Assembly: GCF_000003605.2 (NCBI RefSeq)
Contig: NW_003109081.1
Span: forward strand, 349,563-413,562
DNA length: 64,000 nt
Direction of reading: 5' to 3'
From: Saccoglossus kowalevskii
Taxonomy: Eukaryota > Hemichordata > Enteropneusta > Harrimaniidae
Shown here: in pieces, positions 4,995 through 43,106 of the stretch
How the letters are laid out: each line of letters starts with the position of its first letter
How positions within the stretch are numbered: position 1 is the first letter of the stretch
Made by a program: the position numbers and the translations under genes
The notes under the pieces: model-generated
Seen by the model: only the letters and a program-made list of their open reading frames with translations
Told to the model about the DNA's origin: nothing
Databases searched by the model: none

Positions 4995-5418
4995 GGTTTC
5001 GTCGCTGCAACTGAATATGTTCGAAGACGTCATACATGGGGTGTCGCTTCCGTCAACTGAAACAAATCTCGTTGACTTGTTTCCATGGAAACAACGCATG
5101 ATATAAGAATTGACGAGCAGTGAGTTCGTGTGTGTATTTGTAATCTAGTGGCTGGCGGACTGCAATGGCGTTACTTTGTCCTCTTTGATTCTGCAAGGTG
5201 TTGTTTGTGTTCAACGGTTGAGAGGTTGATCGCATTCGATGTAATACATCGTAGGCGTTCTAGTTCTATTATTTGATGTTATTGGTCAGGTAAATTAAAT
5301 TCGAATCGTCGGTTGAATCAATTTTTGAGGACGGTGTGCGCAACCTAATCGCTTCGTACGACTGTGTAGACACTCACACAACTGGAAATCATATTTTCCA
5401 TTTGGGATTGTCATTATC
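4995..5418 (+). promoter_or_regulatory. Putative promoter / 5' UTR of the receptor gene
   Basis: This 0.4-kb stretch before the receptor ATG is richer in CpG than the DNA upstream. It holds a GACGTCAT element (5026-5033, like a cAMP-response-element core), a perfect 18-bp palindrome (5077-5094) and a TATAAG box (5102-5107) that would place a start near 5130. The start ATG at 5419 has A at -3 and G at +4. An alternative reading is that the stretch is a 5' UTR exon entered through the acceptor at 4994. The sequence does not decide between them. Confidence 0.4.
5077..5094. promoter_or_regulatory. Perfect 18-bp palindrome, X-box-like
   Basis: TTGTTTCCATGGAAACAA equals its own reverse complement. 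Its core GTTTCCATGGAAAC resembles the imperfect palindromic X-box bound by RFX factors (half sites like GTTNCC and GGNAAC), although the fourth base of the half site departs from the usual purine. It lies about 325 bp before the receptor start codon. An RFX role is inferred from the motif only. Confidence 0.4.
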
Positions 5419-5928
5419 ATGGCTGGAATTTACGAGAAAATCTACGATCCGAAAACACTGGGACCAAGTCCAGGAATATCAGAATACAACTCAAGCACAA
5501 TTGAAGATATTGGAACGTGCCTGTGCAGCCTTGACTCCTGCGATTATACCAATATTTATGACATGCTTGGGGACGTGCCGTACGATGTCGCTTACAACAT
5601 TTTGGACAGTATCATTCGCGAATTCAATTTCACCTGCCCGGTTATATATCAGATACCATCGGCAATCGAGACACCAACAAAATACGGTCTTACCATACTC
5701 TTTTTTCTGACCGTTGCTCTCTCGATAGTGGGAAATGTTGTTGTTATATGTGTTCTAACTTTCGGAGCAAGAAAAAAACGAGACTTCAATATTTTTCTAT
5801 TAAATCTGGCCGTCGCTGATTGGACCCTGGCCATATTCTCGATGCCATTCTCATTTATCAACGCAATGCAAGGCGAGTGGATCTTCGGAGGATGTGTTAT
5901 GTGCTCGGTGACTGCTTTTATAAAGAAG
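5419..5928 (+). CDS. Peptide-type class A GPCR, exon 1 (N-terminus to start of TM3)
   Basis: Residues 1-170 of a seven-helix plasma-membrane receptor. The extracellular N-terminus (about 1-88) has N-glycosylation sequons at N24 (NSS) and N70 (NFT) and several cysteines (C34, C36, C41, C73). TM1 is about 89-114 with the GN motif (N106 = N1.50), TM2 about 123-149 with LAVAD (D134 = D2.50), then the extracellular-loop-1 W-I-F-G motif (W154-G157) and C162, which sits exactly 25 residues before the DRY arginine and so is C3.25. There is no cleaved signal peptide, as is usual in this class. ATG 5419 is the first in-frame ATG in good context. The exon ends in AAG before GTAAGA, phase 0, inside TM3. 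Family motifs across all exons point to the neuropeptide branch (NPY/PrRP/GPR83/tachykinin-like). The exact ligand class cannot be read. Confidence 0.93.
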
Positions 5929-7125
5929 GTAAGACTTTACGTGTGTGTTTTATGTGAACAGTGATTGAATCTAAGAATTGTATTCATGTTTTTCCCTTAA
6001 AATCAAGTTGTAAGATGTGACACTAGTATATTATAGTAGTTGTGTTAAATATGTATTATAAATATAAAATATATTATATTCTAAATCTATTTTGATTCCT
6101 AACAAAATAATATTCGTTCAACGGAAGAGTGAACAAATAAAATTAATAAATTGCACATACCGTTAATACATACGTGTTTTTGCGCAATGGAAAAACAGTA
6201 TTTCTAGTTACAACTATCCCATATATTAGTGCAACAATTAATAATGAACACAATTGCATAAAAAGACGGCTCTGTGCAAAATGAATGGCGTATAAGAAGT
6301 GTAAAATAAATGAGAAATATTTCAATCTACATACGCCTGAAAACTTCGTTAGTATTGTCAAATATGAGATGATATCGAAATCATGCTCATGTAACAATTT
6401 TATGTAGAAATTTATCAAATTTGTTTTCTTGAATTCAAATTGTGCGCTACTAAACACGTTACTGCCCTTATATGCAATATTATGTATACAGTGTAAAACA
6501 ATATACACTCTGGAAACTCTCTAAAATTAAATATGCATTGTTGACATATTTTTTTTTTTACAAAATAATGATTCATATCACTATTAATAATAATATTTTG
6601 TCATATGACAATTCCGAAGTTTGGAAGATTAATGGCAAAAGAAAAGACAGTGTCGATATGCACTATTTGATTATTTGTATTTCGGTTTACACATTCTTAA
6701 CGTTTTAAGTCAAAGTAAACAAACAAACAATACAAAACAGTTCAACAATGATGATGGACAATTCAACCTTCACAATCATTTGACTTACATATTTTATCTT
6801 GTAACAAACTATAATTACTCACTTAGGAAGTCATAAAAGTCTTAAATACGTGAATTCGCATCGGTGCATCGGACACTCTTGAGAAATTAAAATTTAAATC
6901 TAGATAGATACTGAACGCAGTTTGTCACTCGCATAATTAATTGATGCACGTCTAATTATAGTGGAATGGTGCATAGATGTCATCAAATAAGTCAACCTTT
7001 CATATTTTATTATGTATTATTTTAATGTATTTTATCAAAATGACCGCCTGAATCTCATTGAGATCGAGAAAGTCGCGAGACTATTGGAGATATAAATAGA
7101 GTCGTCTACCGTCACCGCGTGCACT

Positions 7126-7168
7126 GATCAGGGCATGGAGGTAATAAGAATTACCTCCATGATCAGGG
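7126..7168. repeat. Hairpin flanked by 8-9-bp direct repeats
   Basis: CATGGAGGTAA (from 7134) and TTACCTCCATG (ending 7161) are exact inverted copies separated by 6 nt. GATCAGGG (with a preceding T, so 9 bp) stands on both sides, at 7126-7133 and 7161-7168. The layout is that of a tiny fold-back insertion with a target-site duplication, or a template-switch product. It is too small to carry a gene. Confidence 0.7.
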
Positions 7169-7641
7169 TAACCACGTTATTTGACTAGACCTGTTTTCAA
7201 ATATCTTAATAACTCTAGCAAAAAAAAGTGTACTTGATTGTTCGTTGCATATAACGTACCATTCACTGCTAATTTTTGTTCATAAACAAGAAATGGACAA
7301 TTTGCTATGATATATTAGTTTCACTAATAATACAAGATAAATATGTTACTGTCGACTTACAAACTTAATATCATGTTTACCCCCATGTGATAATCTCGCA
7401 TATTCTAAATGCAAAAACTATAGCGATGATTTTGTAGTTTGTGAACGCGTATTCAGAAACCGTGAATTTTAAAATTACGTCTCAAATACTTTAAGATATT
7501 TTTGCTTTGTTTTAGTCTACATCTGAAAGTATCGTAATCATTCTAATTTATAACATTCTTAATAATAATAATTCAACCACAAAAGTCATAAGATATTGGC
7601 GTATTTTGCAATACCAATATTAATTATATGTAAAAATTGCA

Positions 7642-7690
7642 GTCTACTTGCACGAACCAATCAGATTGCCAGGATTGTTATTACATACTA
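7642..7690 (+). repeat. Dispersed repeat, copy 1 (partner 43107-43152)
   Basis: About 45 bp around GAACCAATCAGATT followed by a GGATTGTTAYTACAT stretch is shared with 43107-43152 in the same orientation with few differences. The core contains CCAAT. Its short length suggests an old, truncated repeat. Confidence 0.55.
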
Positions 7691-7929
7691 TATTATAGCA
7701 TTCTCAATATCAGTGGGTTATTCGCAATAATGTATCCCATTATTGACCATCAAGGCCCCGTGCCATGGATATGATTACAATGTTGCTTTCGAAAACTAAT
7801 GAAGAAAAAACTATATAAAAAAAGTTAATTGTTAGATAACAAGTATTTAATACTAAAATTGGCATCAAATAAAATGGTTCATCGCCAATAAAGCGGATTT
7901 CAATATCGAAATTAAACAATTTTATGAGG

Positions 7930-8540
7930 GCAACGTACGCTAAAGCGCGCTCGGTCGAAGCGTTCCATCTACTACGCGCGCTTCTAGATTCCGCGACTGA
8001 CGCCGCTGTCCAGGTGACCGTCCGACTAGATCGCCCTATTATGTCGATGAACTAAGGTTAACTGGGGGTGATTTATCCAAGAAAGTGCGTAAAACGAAGT
8101 AGAGATATGTTCACAGAGTGCGAGTACAGAGAGACAAATTTGTTCTGTTTTTGTAGTGAGTAGTATTACACTATTTGCGAAACGAGATCAACAAAAAACC
8201 GACGTGACTTGTATTTTCTCAGCGTCGACTTACTGGTAAATGTCACAGTCAGGAGCACAGTTTATATAAACAAATGAAACGATCCAGGCGGTACACAGCG
8301 GCTATCTAGCGTAGCGTAGTGCAAGGCCGCGGCGGACACCGAGTGGCGTACCAGTCACGGTATGCCGTTCTGTCGGGTGATCACACTGACTACAATGCTA
8401 CTTACTTCACACACAAAAATACCGTCCTGAAGTACGTACACTGTGTTCTCTGTCGCTTTCACACGTGTTGACGCTACTTCGCACGCTCGTCATCGTTCTC
8501 GTTGTCAGTTTTGTGATATTCGTGTTCAAGCAATTGTACA
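7930..8540. promoter_or_regulatory. CpG-rich patch in receptor intron 1
   Basis: CpG dinucleotides and GC content rise sharply here against the AT-rich intron, with blocks such as AAAGCGCGCTCGGTCG and GGCCGCGGCGGACACCG. A TATA-like TTTATATAAA sits at 8261-8270, with CpG-dense DNA starting about 30 bp later. This could be an alternative promoter, an unannotated noncoding first exon or an enhancer. No reading frame of note exists in it. Confidence 0.35.
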
Positions 8541-10823
8541 TATAATAAAAATGTCATCCGTGGCTAATGCCACTGATTGCATGAGGCATTGCTGAAGGCA
8601 GTAATGATCTCGAACTATGTGCACTGCACATACAAATTACTAGTAGCGAGTTTCGCTGCCGAATAATTCACGTCTTTCCTTAGATATACATTCTCTAACG
8701 ACAAACATATACATATATATGTAAGAGGTTCTGTATTCGCCAATAAGTTCGGATTTCGGCAATCTAGCCAGCCAGTAATGAAGCCTTATTCAAGTGCTCC
8801 ACGACAACATTTTCGCCACCCGACGGCGTCAGCTCAATTTATTTTTCTAACCTCGTATAATACATTACGTACGGCATCATGCGATTGAATTGCGTCTTAT
8901 GCGTGACTGCCGATATACAAATGTCACCAAATAACATAACGTTTGATAAAACTGCTTCACATACGTGCATGTATATTGAGTGTTGAAACAATTTGAGTGA
9001 TCAGGAATGCGTAAGTCTAATAAGATAGTAGAGAATAATTTAGCCTTGTTGTCAACAGATACAAACGATATCCAGCAGGCTACGATTCGTCCTTGGGTCT
9101 AAATGATGCTTTCGACACACATCATGTACCGTGGTTCGTTCAAGTGCTGCGTTGCCTTTCTCTCACCCCCGCCCAACTATAAACACACACTTCGTTAGCG
9201 ATTTATCAATCAGCAACTCTGAGCCACCTTTTTGTTATTGGCTCTGTGGATAAAAAGAATGCGCTGACTAATAATGTTATTAAAATGCGATTAGAGTTCG
9301 AATCCATTTAACTTTCCCAATTATTATAGACATGTGCGTCAAATGAAGATATTCATCCCTAGCAATGGGGAGATAAGACTATACTTCACAATCCACCTTT
9401 CATAGTGTGTTTCGCATATAACTACTATAACTTTATATGATATTGATAAAGTGTCAAATCATTCAAAATAACATTCCACTGTGCGCACAATGGATATCGT
9501 ATAGGTTCATTTCACTTTATTAATAAAATAAAGATTTATAACTACATTTTTACATGCTTGAGCGGTTAACAGTAAATTATTTCCACAGAAATAGAAGATA
9601 TGAACAAATTAATTTCTTGTCAATAACCCCCGTCCTGTTTAAGTACAAAGTTTCTGAAATGTTCAGCCAATGTAAATTATCATTTAAGAGATAACATGTG
9701 GTATTTATGATATTTGATATTATTAATAAATGAAATCAATAAAGTATACATTTTCTGGATGAACACTGTATCGATTTACCTGTTGAAAAAGTTAAATCCC
9801 AATACGGCGGCAATTTTGTTCTCAAAGCATACATATATAACATTTGTATACATAATACATAAACGGTACCTGGATGGTTCATGAGAAATTAAAAGCAATA
9901 TGGCTACTGCGATTTCAAAATCCGAATAAGGTGAAATAAAACGTGCATGACATATAATTACACAAACAATTTTAACAGTTTCGTCACAATGAATATGACA
10001 ATAATCTAACCACGGTAATTGAACACAAATTGGACTGAATTCAGAAAATCACAGGTCATAACCATATTCTTAAAATGGTGGCCAAAGAGTTAATTTAAAG
10101 CAAATTTGAGAATTGGTGTCAAGCGTTGGGAATATGCTTATGTGCGCTTTGTCTAAGGGATGATATCTAGGCTAGGATTCAATTACCACAAAGTTTACTA
10201 ACGATAGTAATAAAAAAAAACAATGGAAAACGTCAATTTTACCCTTCTATTTGAGGCTGTCACTTTTCTTTTCAATGCCATATAACTTATCTTCCATTGA
10301 TCAACGATTAATTTATTTTTGTCTGAAATATTAAAACTACACTGTGTATACGTCTACTTGTTGAGTGTAACATGTTGAAGTGAAACTTTCAAAGTTTATC
10401 ACCCTAATAATTTAGATAAAATAACAGTAGCCAAACCACACTGCTTCTAAGATTGTCATATCATATACACGTATTGTGTTATTTTAGCGTATTGTTTTGA
10501 TTACACTAAATCTGGTTTTCATTAAAAACACGTTGTACTTACTATGCATTTAATAATCTGTCGTGAAAAAACTAGTGACCTATCTGTGTAGTTAGGAAAT
10601 GAACAGAATTACTGCACCTCCATTGCCTATCGAAGACTGAAACATAATATCAGAATTGCAGACATTCAGGGAATAATTAATTGCAATTTATCAAAGAAAA
10701 AATCCCCCATCCTAAAAAATAAAACTTAGCAGGTTTCAAGATGGCGATGGTGTGTTGGATGTTGTCAGTGACGTACTTCTACAATATTATTTCCTCGTCT
10801 CGGTTATTATATATGTGGGCCGT

Positions 10824-11024
10824 TTCTAAAATTACTTAATACCAATTTCCTTGTAGTTTACCGTATATACAAATACTGACTAGTTGATTGTTCTAAAATT
10901 ACTCAATACCAATTTCCTTGTAGTTTACTTTATATACACATAATGACTAGTTGATTGTTCTAAAATTACTCAATACCAATTTCCATGTAGTTTACTTTAT
11001 ATACAAATACTGACTAGTTGATTG
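10824..11024 (+). repeat. Three-copy 67-bp tandem repeat
   Basis: Units start at 10824, 10891 and 10958, each beginning TTCTAAAATTACT and ending GACTAGTTGATTG, with a handful of substitutions between them. The constant unit length with no indels suggests a fairly recent local duplication. It ends about 480 bp before receptor exon 2. Confidence 0.92.
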
Positions 11025-11507
11025 TTAATAAATAAAATATTTCTTCCGGGTTTGAAAGTAAGAAAATAAACAATTATTAACTAAAACTGGGGGAGGGGGT
11101 AAATGAAAATTTGTTCCACCCGGTGTGAAAATTTGTTCCACCGAGGCCGAGGTAATTAATTGTCACATCAATTTGTTTATTTTTATAATTGTTTTGTCAT
11201 CTTGAATTCGCGTATTTACTTGTCAAGATCGTGAAATTCCGTAGTCTCAGCGACAAAAGCTGTAGTGTTTATTGACAAGAATGTTTTCGGATGTCCTATA
11301 GTTTTTTTACGGCTCTGCCGGACCGATTACGTGTTTGTCTACTTATTCATTTTGTGCGCTTCATTTTGTTGTGTTATCAGTCACGAGAATGGACTCGATC
11401 TTGTCAGCTGCTCGAAATTTCGTTTCGTTTCTAATTTTTAGTTTGAGAGATGACAATACAGTTTATTGGGGGATATATTTGAAATATATGAATGTTATTA
11501 CTTTTAG

Positions 11508-11918
11508 GTCTCTGAAGCTGTGAGTATCTTCACATTGACTGCCATTGGTATAGATCGATATTACGCTGTTATGTACCCGCTGAGAAACAGGATGTCGTCT
11601 TCGAGACCGAGAATAGTTATCGGAGGAATTTGGGCGATATCAACCTGCTTATCGGTGGTCAAACCAATTGTAAGCTATACAAAAACATACCCGCTAGACA
11701 TGTATAGTAACAACACTGTTACCATCTGCAAGGAGTGGTGGCCCAACGATACGCTCCAAATAGTATATGAGTTGACTCTATTCGTTGCTACGTACGTCGC
11801 ACCACTGACTGTCCTCTCATTTACATACACTAAAGTGGCTATGAAACTGTGGACGAGGAGCATTCCGGGCAATGCCGACCAAGGCCGAGACGCCAGTCAC
11901 AACAGATCAAAGAAAAAG
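11508..11918 (+). CDS. Peptide-type class A GPCR, exon 2 (TM3 to intracellular loop 3)
   Basis: Residues 171-307. TM3 continues with FTLTAIGIDRY (D186-R187-Y188, the DRY motif) and the AVMYPL second-loop signature. TM4 is about 206-225 with W212. Extracellular loop 2 has sequons N238 (NNT) and N250 (NDT) and C244, the expected disulphide partner of C162. TM5 is about 256-279 with P269 (P5.50). Loop 3 opens with VAMKLWTRSIPG, a K/R-LW-x(3)-(I/V)PG-like pattern seen in several neuropeptide receptors, and ends in a basic SKKK. The exon follows TTTTAG and ends AAG before GTATGT, phase 0 at both ends. Confidence 0.95.
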
Positions 11919-13115
11919 GTATGTAACAACAAATATTGAGGTTACGTTACGTTACGTTCCGTTACATTTACGATGAGTAATGTCGTTATTTACTTAAGTT
12001 TGTACTCACAGAACGCTGCAGGCTCTGCGCTGTTATTGCTGCTATTATTTTTTTAATATTTTCCAACAAAATAATTTATAAACTCCAATACCCGACGACC
12101 ATTGTATGTCGACATCACTTTTTAGTAAGGCTATGAAAAGCAGGATGTAAGTGACAATGCCATCACCATACCGCCAATAATTGAGCATAAACGCACGAAA
12201 TGAAATAGTTCATGTCTAAATTGGAACACATACTACCTTACTTCTGAAATCACTACGCAATCGACTTGTAACCGTCGGCAGCAGCAGACATATATTCTAG
12301 AGTGTCGTTCAGTAGTCTAGTGCATGCTGGTCATGAGCTTATGATAACTCAGGCGGTACATACACTACGTTTGTTTTATAATGTGATATACAGTGTACTC
12401 GTTTTATATTAGTGTTTTAATGGTTTGAAATGGTTTGCCTGTATGTGATTCAATATCTCGTTCTCGTTGACATCATAACACATTTCGTGGGGGTACACTA
12501 TTATAGCAACTACCTACATAGACCCATACACATGGCAACTCTGACATCTTCCATAATATATAACCTGATAAGTTCATATCTTATATCCCGAGTCATGAAT
12601 AATTCATGACGATAAACTCTTGGGATATATTTAAGTCGTAAACTGCGATTTCCCGGCTTCGAACTGCTTCAATGCGAAGTAACTCGATACCACAATGACA
12701 CCTGTCCATCGGGAATAATCACTATGCATTTTCTTTCATTTGTTTATTCATGCATCCTCGTAATCTGTTTGTACAAGGATGATGATTTTTTTCCGCATTA
12801 CGTTTTTCCCATCGGTGTGTTAAATAACACCGTGTTCTCGAAAAGAAATGTCAAACTACGGTTCGCCCACAACTCTTATACATAATAACCCCCATCATGT
12901 AATATTCATACACTTCTAGCTCGCTTCTGATGTAATATGAGCCGATATTGATGTACATCGTATACTAAATCCCTTAGGGCAGTTTTGTGAAAAAAACAAA
13001 GTTTGTAACTAAATTATTTCCTACTAACCCTTTGACTTACAGGATCAGCCAACATAAATTTATTCTAAAAAAAAAAATGTTTCGCTAAAAAAAATCTTTT
13101 TGTTGTTGCCTACAG
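11919..13115 (+). other. Receptor intron 2
   Basis: Donor GTATGT, acceptor GCCTACAG. Phase 0 joining of K307 to T308 restores KKKTIKML, the usual start of TM6. It contains a (GTTAC)n-like run near 11943-11966 and an imperfect palindrome at 12583-12628; otherwise nothing recognisable. Confidence 0.9.
12583..12628. repeat. Imperfect palindrome in intron 2
   Basis: An inner TCATGAAT-A-ATTCATGA palindrome (12593-12609) is framed by outer arms ATATCCC (12583) and GGGATAT (ending 12628) with unpaired bases between. It may extrude as a cruciform; no function is indicated. Confidence 0.5.
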
Positions 13116-13334
13116 ACTATCAAGATGCTGGTATCGATCGTAGTTCTGTTTGCCCTCTGCTGGATGCCATTGAATCTATTCTATCTAATAACTCTCTTCA
13201 ACGACAACACAGTCCATGAGTACAGTCAACAGAAGGCAACCACCACGGCATACTTGTGCGTTTTAATCTGGATAGCAGTGACAGACAGCTTCATCAATCC
13301 AATCATATACGTGTTTCTAAACGATGGCTTCAGG
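13116..13334 (+). CDS. Peptide-type class A GPCR, exon 3 (TM6-TM7)
   Basis: Residues 308-380. TM6 is about 308-334 with ALCWMPLN (C322, W323 = W6.48, P325 = P6.50), and the PLN variant recalls NPY- and GPR83-type receptors. TM7 is about 352-374 with NPIIY (N368-Y372, the NPxxY motif), then FLNDGFR at the start of helix 8. The exon follows TACAG and ends AGG before GTGGGT, a weaker donor than the others, in phase 0. All class A activation switches are present, so nothing suggests a dead receptor. Confidence 0.95.
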
Positions 13335-14297
13335 GTGGGTTATAATTTAACTATTAATAGTTTGGTTTCTTAGTTAATAATTTCAGTGCATTCGACATGC
13401 AACGGTTACGGTGTTCGCAAGATATCTGCAAACAGCCGAAAACTACAGAGGTTTAGTCTTTCATATTATACATCACCGTTCTCAGGTGAAAAAAAGTTTA
13501 GGTTCAAAATCGAATAAACTGCGGGTACGCATCCAAAAATAAATTTAGTTCTGTATACCCACGAAATGTGCTCACTAAAAGCATTTGGACGTGAATTTAG
13601 GTGCGTATAGTGGTGCTATGTGGATTTCAATAAATGTAAAATTTGATAGACAGGTGCCAAATCCGCCATTTGCTTCTTAGATGGTATCCTCGTACATTTG
13701 ATTGACAGTTGGATGTTATGTAGACGACAGCTCGTGTGCGAAATCGAATGCTTGAATAACGGGTCGTTCAGGTGTTTACTACTTCGTGCTAAGCATTTAC
13801 ATCGTTAACGTGAATATAAATAATACATACAATTTAAATATGACCAAAATAAGCCGACTGTGAACAAAGAAATTGACACCTGAGTATTGTTGCCAATATG
13901 AGATCATCGTGTGAATACCGCAAAGCCTGCATGTTGGCAGCACGACGACCGTATCGACAGCGCGTAGCGGAGGTCTCAGCGGGCGATTCTGTACAACCCG
14001 AGTGTATATTTGTTAGTATTTTCGCGGTAACCTTAGCTGCAAACACATTGCTGGATGCGTCAATTAAAGATTGGCAGAAAATGTCATTACATGAATGGAT
14101 ACTCAGAAAATCGTCAGATTTGGGGGAGATTATTTTTTTTTTCTCTGATTGGTGATTAATGTTGATGATATAGTTTATCCCATAAATAAGGTACCCCGAG
14201 CGTTGGAACGAATACAGAATAATCCGTATTAGAAAAGGCAAATTCTATTGTCTACAGTGACAGATGTTTAATAATAAATCTTGGTTAATTTTTTTAG
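13335..14297 (+). other. Receptor intron 3
   Basis: Donor GTGGGT, acceptor TTTTTTTAG. It separates helix 8 from the cytoplasmic tail. An open frame at 13898-14155 within it lacks homology that I recognise and is taken as chance. Confidence 0.85.
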
Positions 14298-25350: not shown

Positions 25351-25493
25351 AAATAAATAAATAAATAAATAAATAGATGGATGGATGGATGGATGGATGG
25401 ATGGATGGATGGATGGACGGACGGACGGACGGACGGACGGACGGACAGATCGATCGATCGATCGATCGATGGATGGATGGATGAATGAATGAA

Positions 25494-25556
<63 letters not shown>

Positions 25557-25569
25557 ACAAATAAACAAA

Positions 25570-25624
<55 letters not shown>

Positions 25625-25625
25625 A
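25351..25625. repeat. Compound tetranucleotide microsatellite
   Basis: Successive blocks of AAAT, ATGG, ACGG, ATCG, ATGG, AATG and a long AAAT/AAAC block, all in one 4-base register. The blocks differ by single substitutions spread by slippage. Long open frames across it on the minus strand translate to [12 protein letters not shown] repeats and are artefacts of the period-4 sequence. Confidence 0.98.
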
Positions 25626-27489
25626 TGATGTGTGTAATGATGTGTCGGTAATATTTTTATATTGATTTTTGTTGCATTTGCATCAAATATTTACCAAACA
25701 GTGAGACAGAAATCTATAGGATTGGATGTACTTCTTAGCTGGCTTCACATGCATAGTTCAAGCCTTTCTAACCGGTGCTTATACCACTGCTTATATCACT
25801 GCTTTCACCCGGGGGAGGGGTTGCATGACACGAATGGTTGAAATAAATAAATTAATATTCATGTGCAATGAAAGACTACGCTACGAGCTGAAAAATTAAA
25901 CGGAAAACTGATGTAAAAGTGTTTTTGAGACACAGTTTTGATCCAAATTGTTGAATGTAACCACAGGTCGTTTACCGTGATCATAGCAAATTACGAAATT
26001 CATCGGGAATGCAGAGGAACGTATATATTTCCCCCTGGTATTATTGCTCAAATTGTTTTCATTAACTTTTATCAGTGACAAGTTACCTAATTAGTATGCA
26101 TTTCGATAAACTACTGTGTGTATGCGAAGTTTGAAATGGAAATTTTTTAACGCATTAAAATCAAGCGTGGAACTGGTGTGGTTGATTTGTTTTACAATAG
26201 ACATGTTTCTAAGTTGTGTTGCAGACTATTCGTTAACAAAATCGCTGAAATTATTTTATCTCATTGTAAAAGGAACGTTGTTGCTTCAACGTTGTTGCCT
26301 ACGGACGACTGACTTTGAAACGTTTCACCGAGATCGGACGGCGCCCTATTGTGCCAATCCGCCTTCATCATTGCATTCAAACAAATCACGTGTGCGCTGT
26401 TTAAACCCGGAATTCTACCAATAGGGGTAGTAAAAAAACATTGCAAAGCATGCAAATTCAACATTTGCAAACCAGTATACTAAAACAGAAAAGCTTAGGG
26501 ATGCAAAAGAAGGATAGATATTAGTATAAATATCAGTATTTCAGTATGAGCATCTCTGTTGATACAATTCCTCACATATTCTATTCCCATTTATTCCTGC
26601 GTAAACTGGAATAGCCTCTTTCCTTGTCAACATTCTGAGTAAAATCACGTGATAGGCTATTGAAATTGGCTGTTACATACTTACCGCTGGCCTGGAAATT
26701 ATGTTCAATTAGCTCTCATTCAAGTAACAATGCAGATTTCCTAGTGGGATTAGGACTGGTTCGACCCCACCATTAAAAAATGTGGGTGTTTTCAGCAAAA
26801 AACGAATAACCCTGGAGTGCACACAATACACTAAATTTCGGAACAAATCTCGCATTAGTTATGGCAGCAGAATATCCGTAAAATATCAGACGAAACATGA
26901 AAACACTACATATTGTATTTCAGCCTGAACCCTTTATTGCAATTCCAGGAATTACCCCCATACGTACAACCATTTTCCGCCTTGTATAACCAACTCCTGA
27001 AAACAAACTCTTGATTCCACGCTGAAGCGTTTGGGAACAAAGACAGATTAATTTTTGAAAAAGTACTTCGTCTTGGCGTTGACGTTTTGAAATTCCAAAC
27101 TCACAAAGTTTAGAATTTGCTGTGGAAATAGCGTGAATTACTGTATGCACACGTGACTAATTTGCATAGCTTTTTTCATGGCTCTTAATACTCTTGTTTG
27201 TGCAATAACGTAGCTTTGGAAATCTTATTATTAAAAATACACTATAATAACATTAAACAATAATTATGGGAGAAATATACTATCGTTATATTACATATGC
27301 AATATTACGTGGTACATGTGTGCTGGCAGTCGCTATGAATTTACATAAATTAGAGATGTGTTTGGAAAAAATGTATTGATCAAACTAAAGCTGATATTTA
27401 AGTTAAACCTTATTTTGCTTAGAGCTGCGTAAATTGAAGGTTTTGTTGTTCTTATTCCACACCAAAAATGTTGATTATCAGATTAAAGG

Positions 27490-40308: not shown

Positions 40309-40314
40309 TTTATT
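40309..40314 (-). terminator. Polyadenylation signal of the peptide gene
   Basis: AATAAA on the minus strand is the first canonical signal after the peptide stop codon at 40502, giving a 3' UTR of roughly 200 nt. No AATAAA or ATTAAA lies between. Confidence 0.5.
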
Positions 40315-40501: not shown

Positions 40502-40831
40502 TTAACTCTTCGATCTTCTACAGAATTTCTTACAAAACATCATGCAGGAGGAAGACCTGCACTGTTCCATGCAGTGTGCGCATGGGCGAACACGGGCTGC
40601 GCGTCTGGATAGGACAGCAGTGTCGGTAGTTAATGCATTCTTATACAGAAACGCTGGAAGGAAGTCTGGGTCCTCGTCAATGTAGTTGTCGTCGTCTTCG
40701 TCCTCGGAATTTCTGGAAGCAAGTCTCGGTGGGAACAATGCATCCTGCTCATCGCTCATGTACAGACTGGCGAAGCACAAGTCTAATACGAACAGCGTCA
40801 GTAATAGGCGGAATGGGAGATACATGACCAT
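40502..40831 (-). CDS. Secreted six-cysteine peptide precursor, unknown family
   Basis: A 109-residue prepropeptide. Residues 1-21 are a clear signal peptide (RLLLTLFVLDLCFA core, likely cut after A21). Residues 22-75 are an acidic pro-region with 14 Asp/Glu, densest at 43-56. R76-R77 is a dibasic convertase site. The predicted mature domain (78-109) is strongly basic and has six cysteines, C84, C87, C91, C96, C100 and C104, with spacing C-x2-C-x3-C-x4-C-x3-C-x3-C. A second RR at 105-106 could trim a short C-terminal tail. The coding part is one exon: a pyrimidine-rich acceptor (ATAATTTCAG) ends 4 nt before the ATG, so the 5' UTR is probably split. The layout is that of neuropeptide, hormone or antimicrobial peptide precursors. 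The C-x2-C-x3-C start recalls trissin-type neuropeptides and part of the spacing recalls hepcidin, but neither pattern fits fully. No family is assigned. Confidence 0.82.
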   Translation of the reverse strand: MVMYLPFRLLLTLFVLDLCFASLYMSDEQDALFPPRLASRNSEDEDDDNYIDEDPDFLPAFLYKNALTTDTAVLSRRAARVRPCAHCMEQCRSSSCMMFCKKFCRRSKS

Positions 40832-40835
40832 ATTT

Positions 40836-40845
40836 CTGAAATTAT
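40836..40845 (-). other. Splice acceptor just before the peptide ATG
   Basis: On the minus strand ATAATTTCAG ends at 40836, and the exon would begin at 40835 with AAAT before ATG. It implies at least one upstream noncoding exon at higher plus-strand coordinates, which I could not locate. This supports the ORF being a real exon. Confidence 0.5.
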
Positions 40846-43106
40846 CAAACGAAATGCGTTAAATTCCTAATAAACTCACTGGAACAAGCCATGTTTGTCG
40901 TACGAAAATATGGCAAATATAAGAACTATCGGTGTTGTATGATTTGACGTATTTGTGACAGATAGCAAAAGTCAATTATTGCTTCGCACATTCACGACAT
41001 AATCGTTTCTCAAGTTTCTTGTAAACAAAATGTGGATTTAAAAGTATATGGCTTACTTTGGTCGCTGTGAATTTGTGTACACATAAACAAAAATCATTTA
41101 GCAATTAGGACTGCAAACTACACTGAAACATCATTTTTGCATTAAAATTAACTAAACTTGTGAATAATATATAATCGTCACTGACGGACGATATAGTATA
41201 TGAATTGTTTATGTGACATTAATATTTTCATTGCGTTGCGCCCTCTGTGACGTATATTGATGAATGAATGGCTATTAACGGCGTTCATATTCTTCTATAT
41301 GTAGACGACCGTCAGAATAAATAATGTTTTGTGAGAGGTTCTATATTTTAAAAGACGATCTACTACACACCCAATCGTTATGATCGCTCTGAACGCCATT
41401 GTTCATATCCATCTAAGGCATGCTTACGTCATGGAATCGCCGTGTTGTTTAAGGGCGCAAATAATATGTTGAATATTTTGACGTCATAATAAATCTACCT
41501 GAGGATTCACAGCCAACTAAGTTCAAATAACTATAAACTAAACTGAACGATGCACATTTCAGTACATAGTCGTACCATTTCTCCCACTTTACCTGACAGA
41601 AGTTGTTTGAATCGTGATATAAAAATAATATTCCGGCGAGCGGGAATGAATTCGAAGTTAATACAACCTAATGTTTTATGTGTTGCATCAAAATATCAAA
41701 CAATTTATGTTATAAGAAAACAAAATACAATCATAAATATTATTTTTATTCTCTTTTGGGGGGCAGCCGATGAGTCACGTAAGACAGTTCTTATGTTAAA
41801 CTATACATTTTATAAATCATGAACAATTCACGTGAAAATGAGAAAGAGATGAACAATATAAACTGGTTTAACTGCTACAACCTAGAGACTAATTACCCAA
41901 ATTATTGCGGATGATCAAGAATGATTACTTAGGCGCCGGAAAATAAATGAATGGAACCCTCGATGAATAATGAATCAAACTGTAATAAAAGTATTAGGAA
42001 TACCGGGAATTGTTTATATTACTACATTGTGATTAATTATTATTGTGTACCATTGTGGCGTCTGTCATCGTAATTGCAATAAAAAACAGAGCACGACGCT
42101 ATTGCTGGGAATTATAGAGCGTGTTTCTGACGAACTTTTCGAATGATGGTGGAAACCTCTAACTACGGGTTGTGTGTGGCGGAAGGGTGAGTCAATTTAC
42201 ACGGCGATAATGAAGTTAATATTAAATAAAAGACGGACAGGATTATCGTTAGGTTGGGTGATCAATCCATTATACACAGTGTTATGTACAGATTTGCCAA
42301 CCGTGGTTACAAGAAATTGAGGATATGTGCAATGGTGAATAAACAAAACTCTACGTGACGTACACTGTGGTGTGCAGTAAGCAAATAGTTTAAAAAACAT
42401 AAATGCGTTCATAAAAATTCTTGATTCTTTTTTTACAATCGTTGAAGCTTACTTACTTAGTTATTATTATTATTATTATTCAATTTCAACAGGTATGTAA
42501 AATACAATTGAAACCATATCTAATATTAATATATAATATACACATAATCATTGAATAACAGCTACAACAACACACAATGATGCACATATTTTCAAGTGAG
42601 ACGATTGTATGTGACTATAGAACACTGCGTACTAATATTTTATAAATGAATTATTGACTGGTGACCTAAGTACAATGAATATCTCACGAGTGGGAAACAC
42701 ATAACGATTACAAACACTAGTTTAATAGGTGTTATAAATGTTCTTGGATCACTCTTGAGATATCATGTTTGTAACGCACAAACTAACGCATAAATTGTGA
42801 GTGCATAATCAAGACTCTGTAGAGTGTGTGTCTATTTTGCACCGAACACTGCCACACTTACCCTTCATGCGATTAGGAAATATTTTGTTTTCAATAAGTG
42901 AATTTAATAAGTAGTCAATAAACACACACTCGTTGGGTGATATGTATATTCGTGCGCGGATAATTGATGTTGAGGTGTATAACGTATATGTGGCTTTAAT
43001 TTATACCCCGGCCCAAATATATATATATCCCACCATATCTAATACTTTAATGCGAAAATATAGTGTAAAACCACTAACATATTGAAATATAAAGTCAAAA
43101 TCTTAT

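Follow-up and report, generated by a model that had tools for sequence, protein, structure and literature searches.

A putative six-cysteine cationic peptide precursor in the acorn worm Saccoglossus kowalevskii, tentatively assigned to host defense

The stretch of DNA analyzed here, which we call the window, comprises 64,000 nucleotides of the genome of the acorn worm Saccoglossus kowalevskii (RefSeq assembly GCF_000003605.2, contig NW_003109081.1, positions 349,563 to 413,562 of the forward strand; positions below count from its first letter). An earlier note on this DNA, made from the letters alone, had described a secreted precursor with a signal peptide, a pro-region with 14 acidic residues, an Arg-Arg site, and a tail carrying about seven net positive charges. 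All of these elements are present in a single 109-residue open reading frame (ORF) on the minus strand (Table 1), with the 14 aspartates and glutamates falling within residues 22 to 77. The precursor contains seven cysteines, of which C19 lies within the signal peptide and the other six (84, 87, 91, 96, 100, and 104) lie in the tail, confirming the spacing C-x2-C-x3-C-x4-C-x3-C-x3-C given in the note. The signal peptide was scored with a von Heijne weight matrix, and its score is unmatched by any other N-free ORF of at least 60 residues that begins with ATG in the window.

Table 1. Features of the peptide locus, in positions of the window
Feature	Positions	Strand	Basis
Complete precursor coding sequence including TAA, 109 residues	40502..40831	minus	ORF translation, coding composition
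Signal peptide, residues 1-21, predicted cut A21/S22	40769..40831	minus	von Heijne score 11.1
Acidic pro-region, residues 22-75, charge about -11 at pH 7	40607..40768	minus	Sequence; no confident fold
RR 76-77, likely prohormone-convertase site	40601..40606	minus	Sequence; site rules
Mature peptide candidate, residues 78-109, six cysteines, net +7	40505..40600	minus	Sequence, charge count, AlphaFold2 model
Predicted helix 1, residues 84-90	40562..40582	minus	AlphaFold2; 82-90 in longer model
Predicted helix 2, residues 94-103	40523..40552	minus	AlphaFold2; 94-108 in longer model
Putative 3' splice site	40835..40854	minus	AG 40836-40837, first exon base 40835, four bases ahead of ATG; inference
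AATAAA, possible polyadenylation signal	40309..40314	minus	188 nt past stop

The locus appears to be a single genuine gene encoding a small secreted peptide. The ORF has a GC content of 49%, compared with 31 to 32% in the 500-base flanks. We trained a positional coding score on the exons of a G protein-coupled receptor (GPCR) gene in the same window; it reaches 0.19 in the frame of the precursor, against 0.04 and 0.00 in the two remaining sense frames and 0.10, 0.13, and -0.03 in the antisense frames. The background for this score was drawn from up to 5000 random segments, leaving out those that contain N or start within 5300-14000; it averages -0.158 +/- 0.085, and no segment reaches the value of the precursor ORF. 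The splice acceptor that the earlier note had placed just before the ATG is plausible: the AG is there and, by rough weights, outscores 92.6% of the AGs on the minus strand, a rank that falls short of proof. For comparison, the inferred acceptor of the GPCR gene at 11508 ranks at 75.7% among plus-strand AGs by the same rough weights. The downstream AATAAA of the same note is also present and recurs 254 and 431 nt beyond the stop, but it is weak evidence of polyadenylation because the background density of this hexamer is 1.3 per kb.

The GPCR gene is of the rhodopsin type and lies on the plus strand, with exon-bearing frames at 5419-5961, 11508-11936, and 13089-13370, whose exon edges are provisional. 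All three frames carry the Pfam domain 7tm_1, and the best PDB matches are the tachykinin, NPFF, PrRP, CCK, and orexin receptors; the product is a receptor of the peptide type, and its N-terminus contains several cysteines. A 67-base unit stands in three tandem copies that are 94% matching (10824-11026), immediately upstream of the second exon. Tetranucleotide arrays (AAAT, GATG, and AATA) at 25351-25626 produce long low-complexity open frames, and a run of 431 N at 948-1378 marks a gap or masked stretch. Seven other open frames, selected from the 456 stop-to-stop frames of at least 45 residues in the window, matched no Pfam family.

Charge is strongly segregated along the precursor. The separation across residues 22 to 109 exceeds that of residue permutations (p ~0.002), and residues 78 to 109 hold eight lysines and arginines and one glutamate, for a net charge of +7 at pH 7. 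Further dibasic sites occur inside the tail (KK 101-102 and RR 105-106), and trimming at RR 105-106 would leave residues 78 to 104 with a net charge of +4. Because P4 of the main site, RR 76-77, is not basic, this site suits prohormone convertases, while R77-A-A-R80 offers a minimal furin-type alternative. The ends of the mature peptide are therefore uncertain, given the furin-type motif and the extra dibasics, and because one site suits convertases and the other furin, processing does not discriminate among functions. No C-terminal glycine for amidation is present in the mature tail sequence. The charge-balanced layout with dibasic release that the earlier note had emphasized is thus borne out, but it cannot separate a hormone from a host-defense peptide or a toxin.

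AlphaFold2 was run on single sequences, without an alignment. For residues 78 to 109, it predicts two helices with a mean pLDDT of 81.4 (70.9 to 81.4 across five models) and a pTM of 0.43. A model of the 88-residue pro-peptide retains both helices, each longer, at a pLDDT of 58 and a pTM of 0.29, and shows no confident structure in the pro-region. Single bridge symbols stand at residues 83 and 105 of the shorter model. Taken as bridge partners, they would bring the ends together and place C84 beside C104, which would suit the pairing put forward in the earlier note, a C84-C104 disulfide with C87-C100 and C91-C96 inside it. Helix amphipathicity is unexceptional, as the hydrophobic moments of residues 84-91, 94-104, and 94-109 are reached by 6%, 27%, and 16% of shuffles, respectively. 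A Foldseek search with the 78-109 model found no PDB chain. The two modeled helices (pLDDT 81, pTM 0.43) are compatible with the helical hairpin proposed in the earlier note, but the class of disulfide-stabilized helical hairpins is already known.

Two groups within that class come closest. The alpha-hairpinin motif, Xn-C1-X3-C2-Xn-C3-X3-C4-Xn with pairs 1-4 and 2-3, is described in the sections cited as common to scorpion kappa-hefutoxins and cone-snail peptides (PMC7191063). The inner cysteines of the acorn-worm peptide, C87-x3-C91-x4-C96-x3-C100, show this motif of the CS-alpha-alpha class (plant alpha-hairpinins, kappa-hefutoxins, and the cone-snail peptides flf14a-c and vil14a), and the peptide is likewise short, with two predicted helices. 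However, the alpha-hairpinin motif implies four cysteines and two disulfides, whereas the acorn-worm tail has six cysteines, with 84/104 as an extra outer pair, a four-residue loop, and an acidic pro-region with dibasic release; we thus do not place it in the four-cysteine family. The second group comprises helical hairpins that carry three or four disulfides and are related to acrorhagin-1, as outlined in part of PMC11896702, including the octocoral toxins U-GRTX-Esi20/21; nemertean B-IV is also described as a helical hairpin (PMC6410017, in the portion cited). Like the acrorhagin-1-type toxins, the acorn-worm peptide is short and cysteine-rich; it has six cysteines and two predicted helices, compared with their hairpin of three or four disulfides. 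In contrast to that group, which according to the same portion of the source forms a large paralogous superfamily, it has no second copy detectable by similarity, no PDB sequence match, and no Foldseek chain.

The gene is apparently single-copy, as judged by sequence similarity; diverged paralogs sharing little beyond the cysteines could escape such a search. We searched 4830 contigs (572,110,611 bases) of the worm's own genome. The precursor matched only itself at E<=0.001 (one of three candidates), as did the mature part at E<=10 (one candidate). At E<=10, the precursor had two additional weak matches (E of 3.55 and 7.72), neither of which we accept as a paralog: one (L007) has a frame without the six-cysteine tail, and the frame of the other (L008) resembles a potassium-channel protein by eye. 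The latter is a 412-residue open frame at 1015-2250 of L008 (contig C3178). Within the window, no second copy was found (the next tblastn match has an E of 2.0), and the segment 39500-42500 has no repeat at E<=1e-3. Database searches agree with the earlier note, which could not place the peptide in a named family. Pfam returned no family at E<=10 for the precursor, the pro-peptide, or the mature part; NCBIfam, a prokaryote library, returned none for the precursor and mature part; and no PDB sequence was similar to either at E<=10. In viral contigs, seven stretches fit a short pattern, and none was confirmed as a relative. A text search with peptide fragments returned only unrelated titles, and the peptide did not appear in the search listings and excerpts consulted.

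The same set of contigs includes one of 17,037 bases (C4830) that is a mitochondrial genome with COX1. Its genes, read by eye, show COX1 inverted relative to COX2, ND2 ahead of ND1, and ND5 adjoining COB; the usual vertebrate order is ND1 and then ND2. ATA stands at expected Ile at conserved positions and AAA at expected Lys, TGA reads as Trp, and ARAGORN assigns the tRNA-Lys the anticodon TTT. By sequence, these features point to an acorn-worm host and match the published description of the S. kowalevskii mitochondrion, which in the part cited gives AUA as Ile, AAA as Lys, a tRNA-Lys with UUU, a COX1 inversion, and a transposition of ND1 or ND2 (PMC3121625). The excerpted text of PMC2697986 presents ATA as Ile as an ambulacrarian feature and reports that ND5 adjoins COB in both hemichordates, an arrangement shared by Xenoturbella even though the latter is without ATA as Ile.

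What would such a peptide do? The likeliest single reading, a tentative one that stands slightly ahead of a regulatory role, is that the mature part is a cationic host-defense (antimicrobial) peptide. The signal peptide would direct the preproprotein into the secretory pathway, and the acidic pro-piece would keep the basic tail neutralized while the protein folds and is stored. A cut after RR77 (or R80) would then release a peptide of about 24 to 32 residues, which may adopt a fold of two short helices, antiparallel and linked by a cystine ladder of three rungs (C84-C104, C87-C100, and C91-C96), and act on microbial surfaces as an antimicrobial. The hairpin packing, cleavage, disulfide pairing, and function in this scheme are all inferred. 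We favor a defense role because of the charge of +4 to +7, the hydrophobic residues M97, M98, F99, and F103 adjoining lysines K101 and K102, and the absence of an amidation glycine. The split between a +7 tail and a -11 pro-piece, together with the two-helix model, supports this reading, and the precursor shows what is broadly expected of host-defense peptides, namely, a cationic cysteine-rich peptide (six cysteines, putatively in disulfides) behind an anionic pro-piece. By analogy, the fit of the inner cysteines to the alpha-hairpinin motif would also favor host defense, as that class includes defense peptides in the sections cited (PMC7191063). Counting against it are the absence of a paralog by similarity at E<=10, the unexceptional amphipathicity, the empty Foldseek search, the single-sequence nature of the models with their pTM of 0.43 and 0.29, and one match in 150 in the cruder of two chance tests.

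A regulatory peptide, that is, a neuropeptide or hormone processed by convertases in secretory granules whose stapled form activates a receptor, is a serious possibility. The precursor layout is common to host-defense peptides, hormones, and toxins, and dibasic release fits a hormone equally well: a signal peptide and a dibasic site ahead of the peptide are what is broadly expected of neuropeptide and hormone precursors, and the RR site here precedes a single C-terminal peptide. Defense and venom peptides often occur as gene families, and the lack of a second copy in the worm's genome by similarity leans toward a regulator. Six-cysteine regulatory peptides exist, such as trissin, and some 27 kb of the window separate the precursor gene from that of the peptide-type GPCR, a linkage that says little. 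Set against a regulatory role are the very high net charge of the tail, the missing amidation glycine, the lack of any matching family in Pfam or among PDB sequences, and the R77-A-A-R80 motif, a furin-type site, which would permit constitutive release as well.

It is unlikely that the peptide belongs to the disulfide-stabilized helical hairpin class as a toxin-like or mucus defense peptide that targets ion channels or repels predators. An acidic pro-piece followed by a dibasic site is a usual layout of toxin precursors and counts for such a role, whereas acorn worms are not known to be venomous, which counts against it, as do the lack of a second copy in the genome and of any PDB sequence match at E<=10. 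The fold class itself is known from sea-anemone, octocoral, scorpion, cone-snail, and nemertean toxins, as described in the portions cited (PMC11896702, PMC6410017, PMC7191063).

That the frame is open by chance and holds no gene is very unlikely. Its individual elements are not rare: signal-peptide-like ORFs of at least 109 residues arose in 48 of 300 windows simulated with an order-5 Markov model, so that ORF length plus signal peptide alone is weak evidence, and six cysteines within 30 residues without a stop occur in four other places across the six frames of the window, so that the cysteine cluster alone is weak evidence, too. A cruder hydrophobicity filter, which demanded an uncharged stretch, gave one match in 150 order-3 simulated windows; the same filter did not call the precursor ORF itself, as R8 and D17 interrupt the stretch. 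Against chance, the full combination of signal peptide, dibasic site, and six-cysteine tail appeared in none of the 300 order-5 windows, the coding score lies above all sampled segments and is highest in the correct frame, and GC content steps up at the ORF. The exact cysteine spacing is also unique to this locus within the six frames of the window.

A missing trissin, suggested by the shared six cysteines, the similar length, a C-x2-C-x3-C start as in crab trissin as printed in PMC8449533, and the lophotrochozoan trissin-type receptors listed without ligands in the excerpt of PMC8557429 (orphans outside arthropods), is hardly credible and was rejected on cysteine spacing, precursor layout, alignment, and phylum: the one crab sequence reads C-x2-C-x3-C-x3-C-x7-CC, with a vicinal pair and other spacing of cysteines 4 to 6, and sits directly after its signal peptide rather than at the C-terminus as residues 78-109 do (PMC8449533, in part), gives no BLASTP alignment with the acorn-worm peptide at E<=100, and belongs to a protostome system with no receptor known from deuterostomes in the text cited (PMC11087051), while the host here is a hemichordate.

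Beyond the choice of function, the peptide may represent a hemichordate-specific signaling or defense family encoded by one gene, a three-rung cystine-laddered hairpin with four residues between the ladder halves that is independent of toxin and plant hairpins, an idea that we regard as somewhat doubtful. Judged by titles, none of the matches listed in a full-text search for Saccoglossus and antimicrobial peptide was a study of hemichordate antimicrobial peptides. If real, the gene would provide a candidate bioactive peptide from hemichordates. It would also provide a very compact stapled-helix scaffold, small enough for direct synthesis and testing and arrived at apparently independently of the scorpion, anemone, and plant hairpins.
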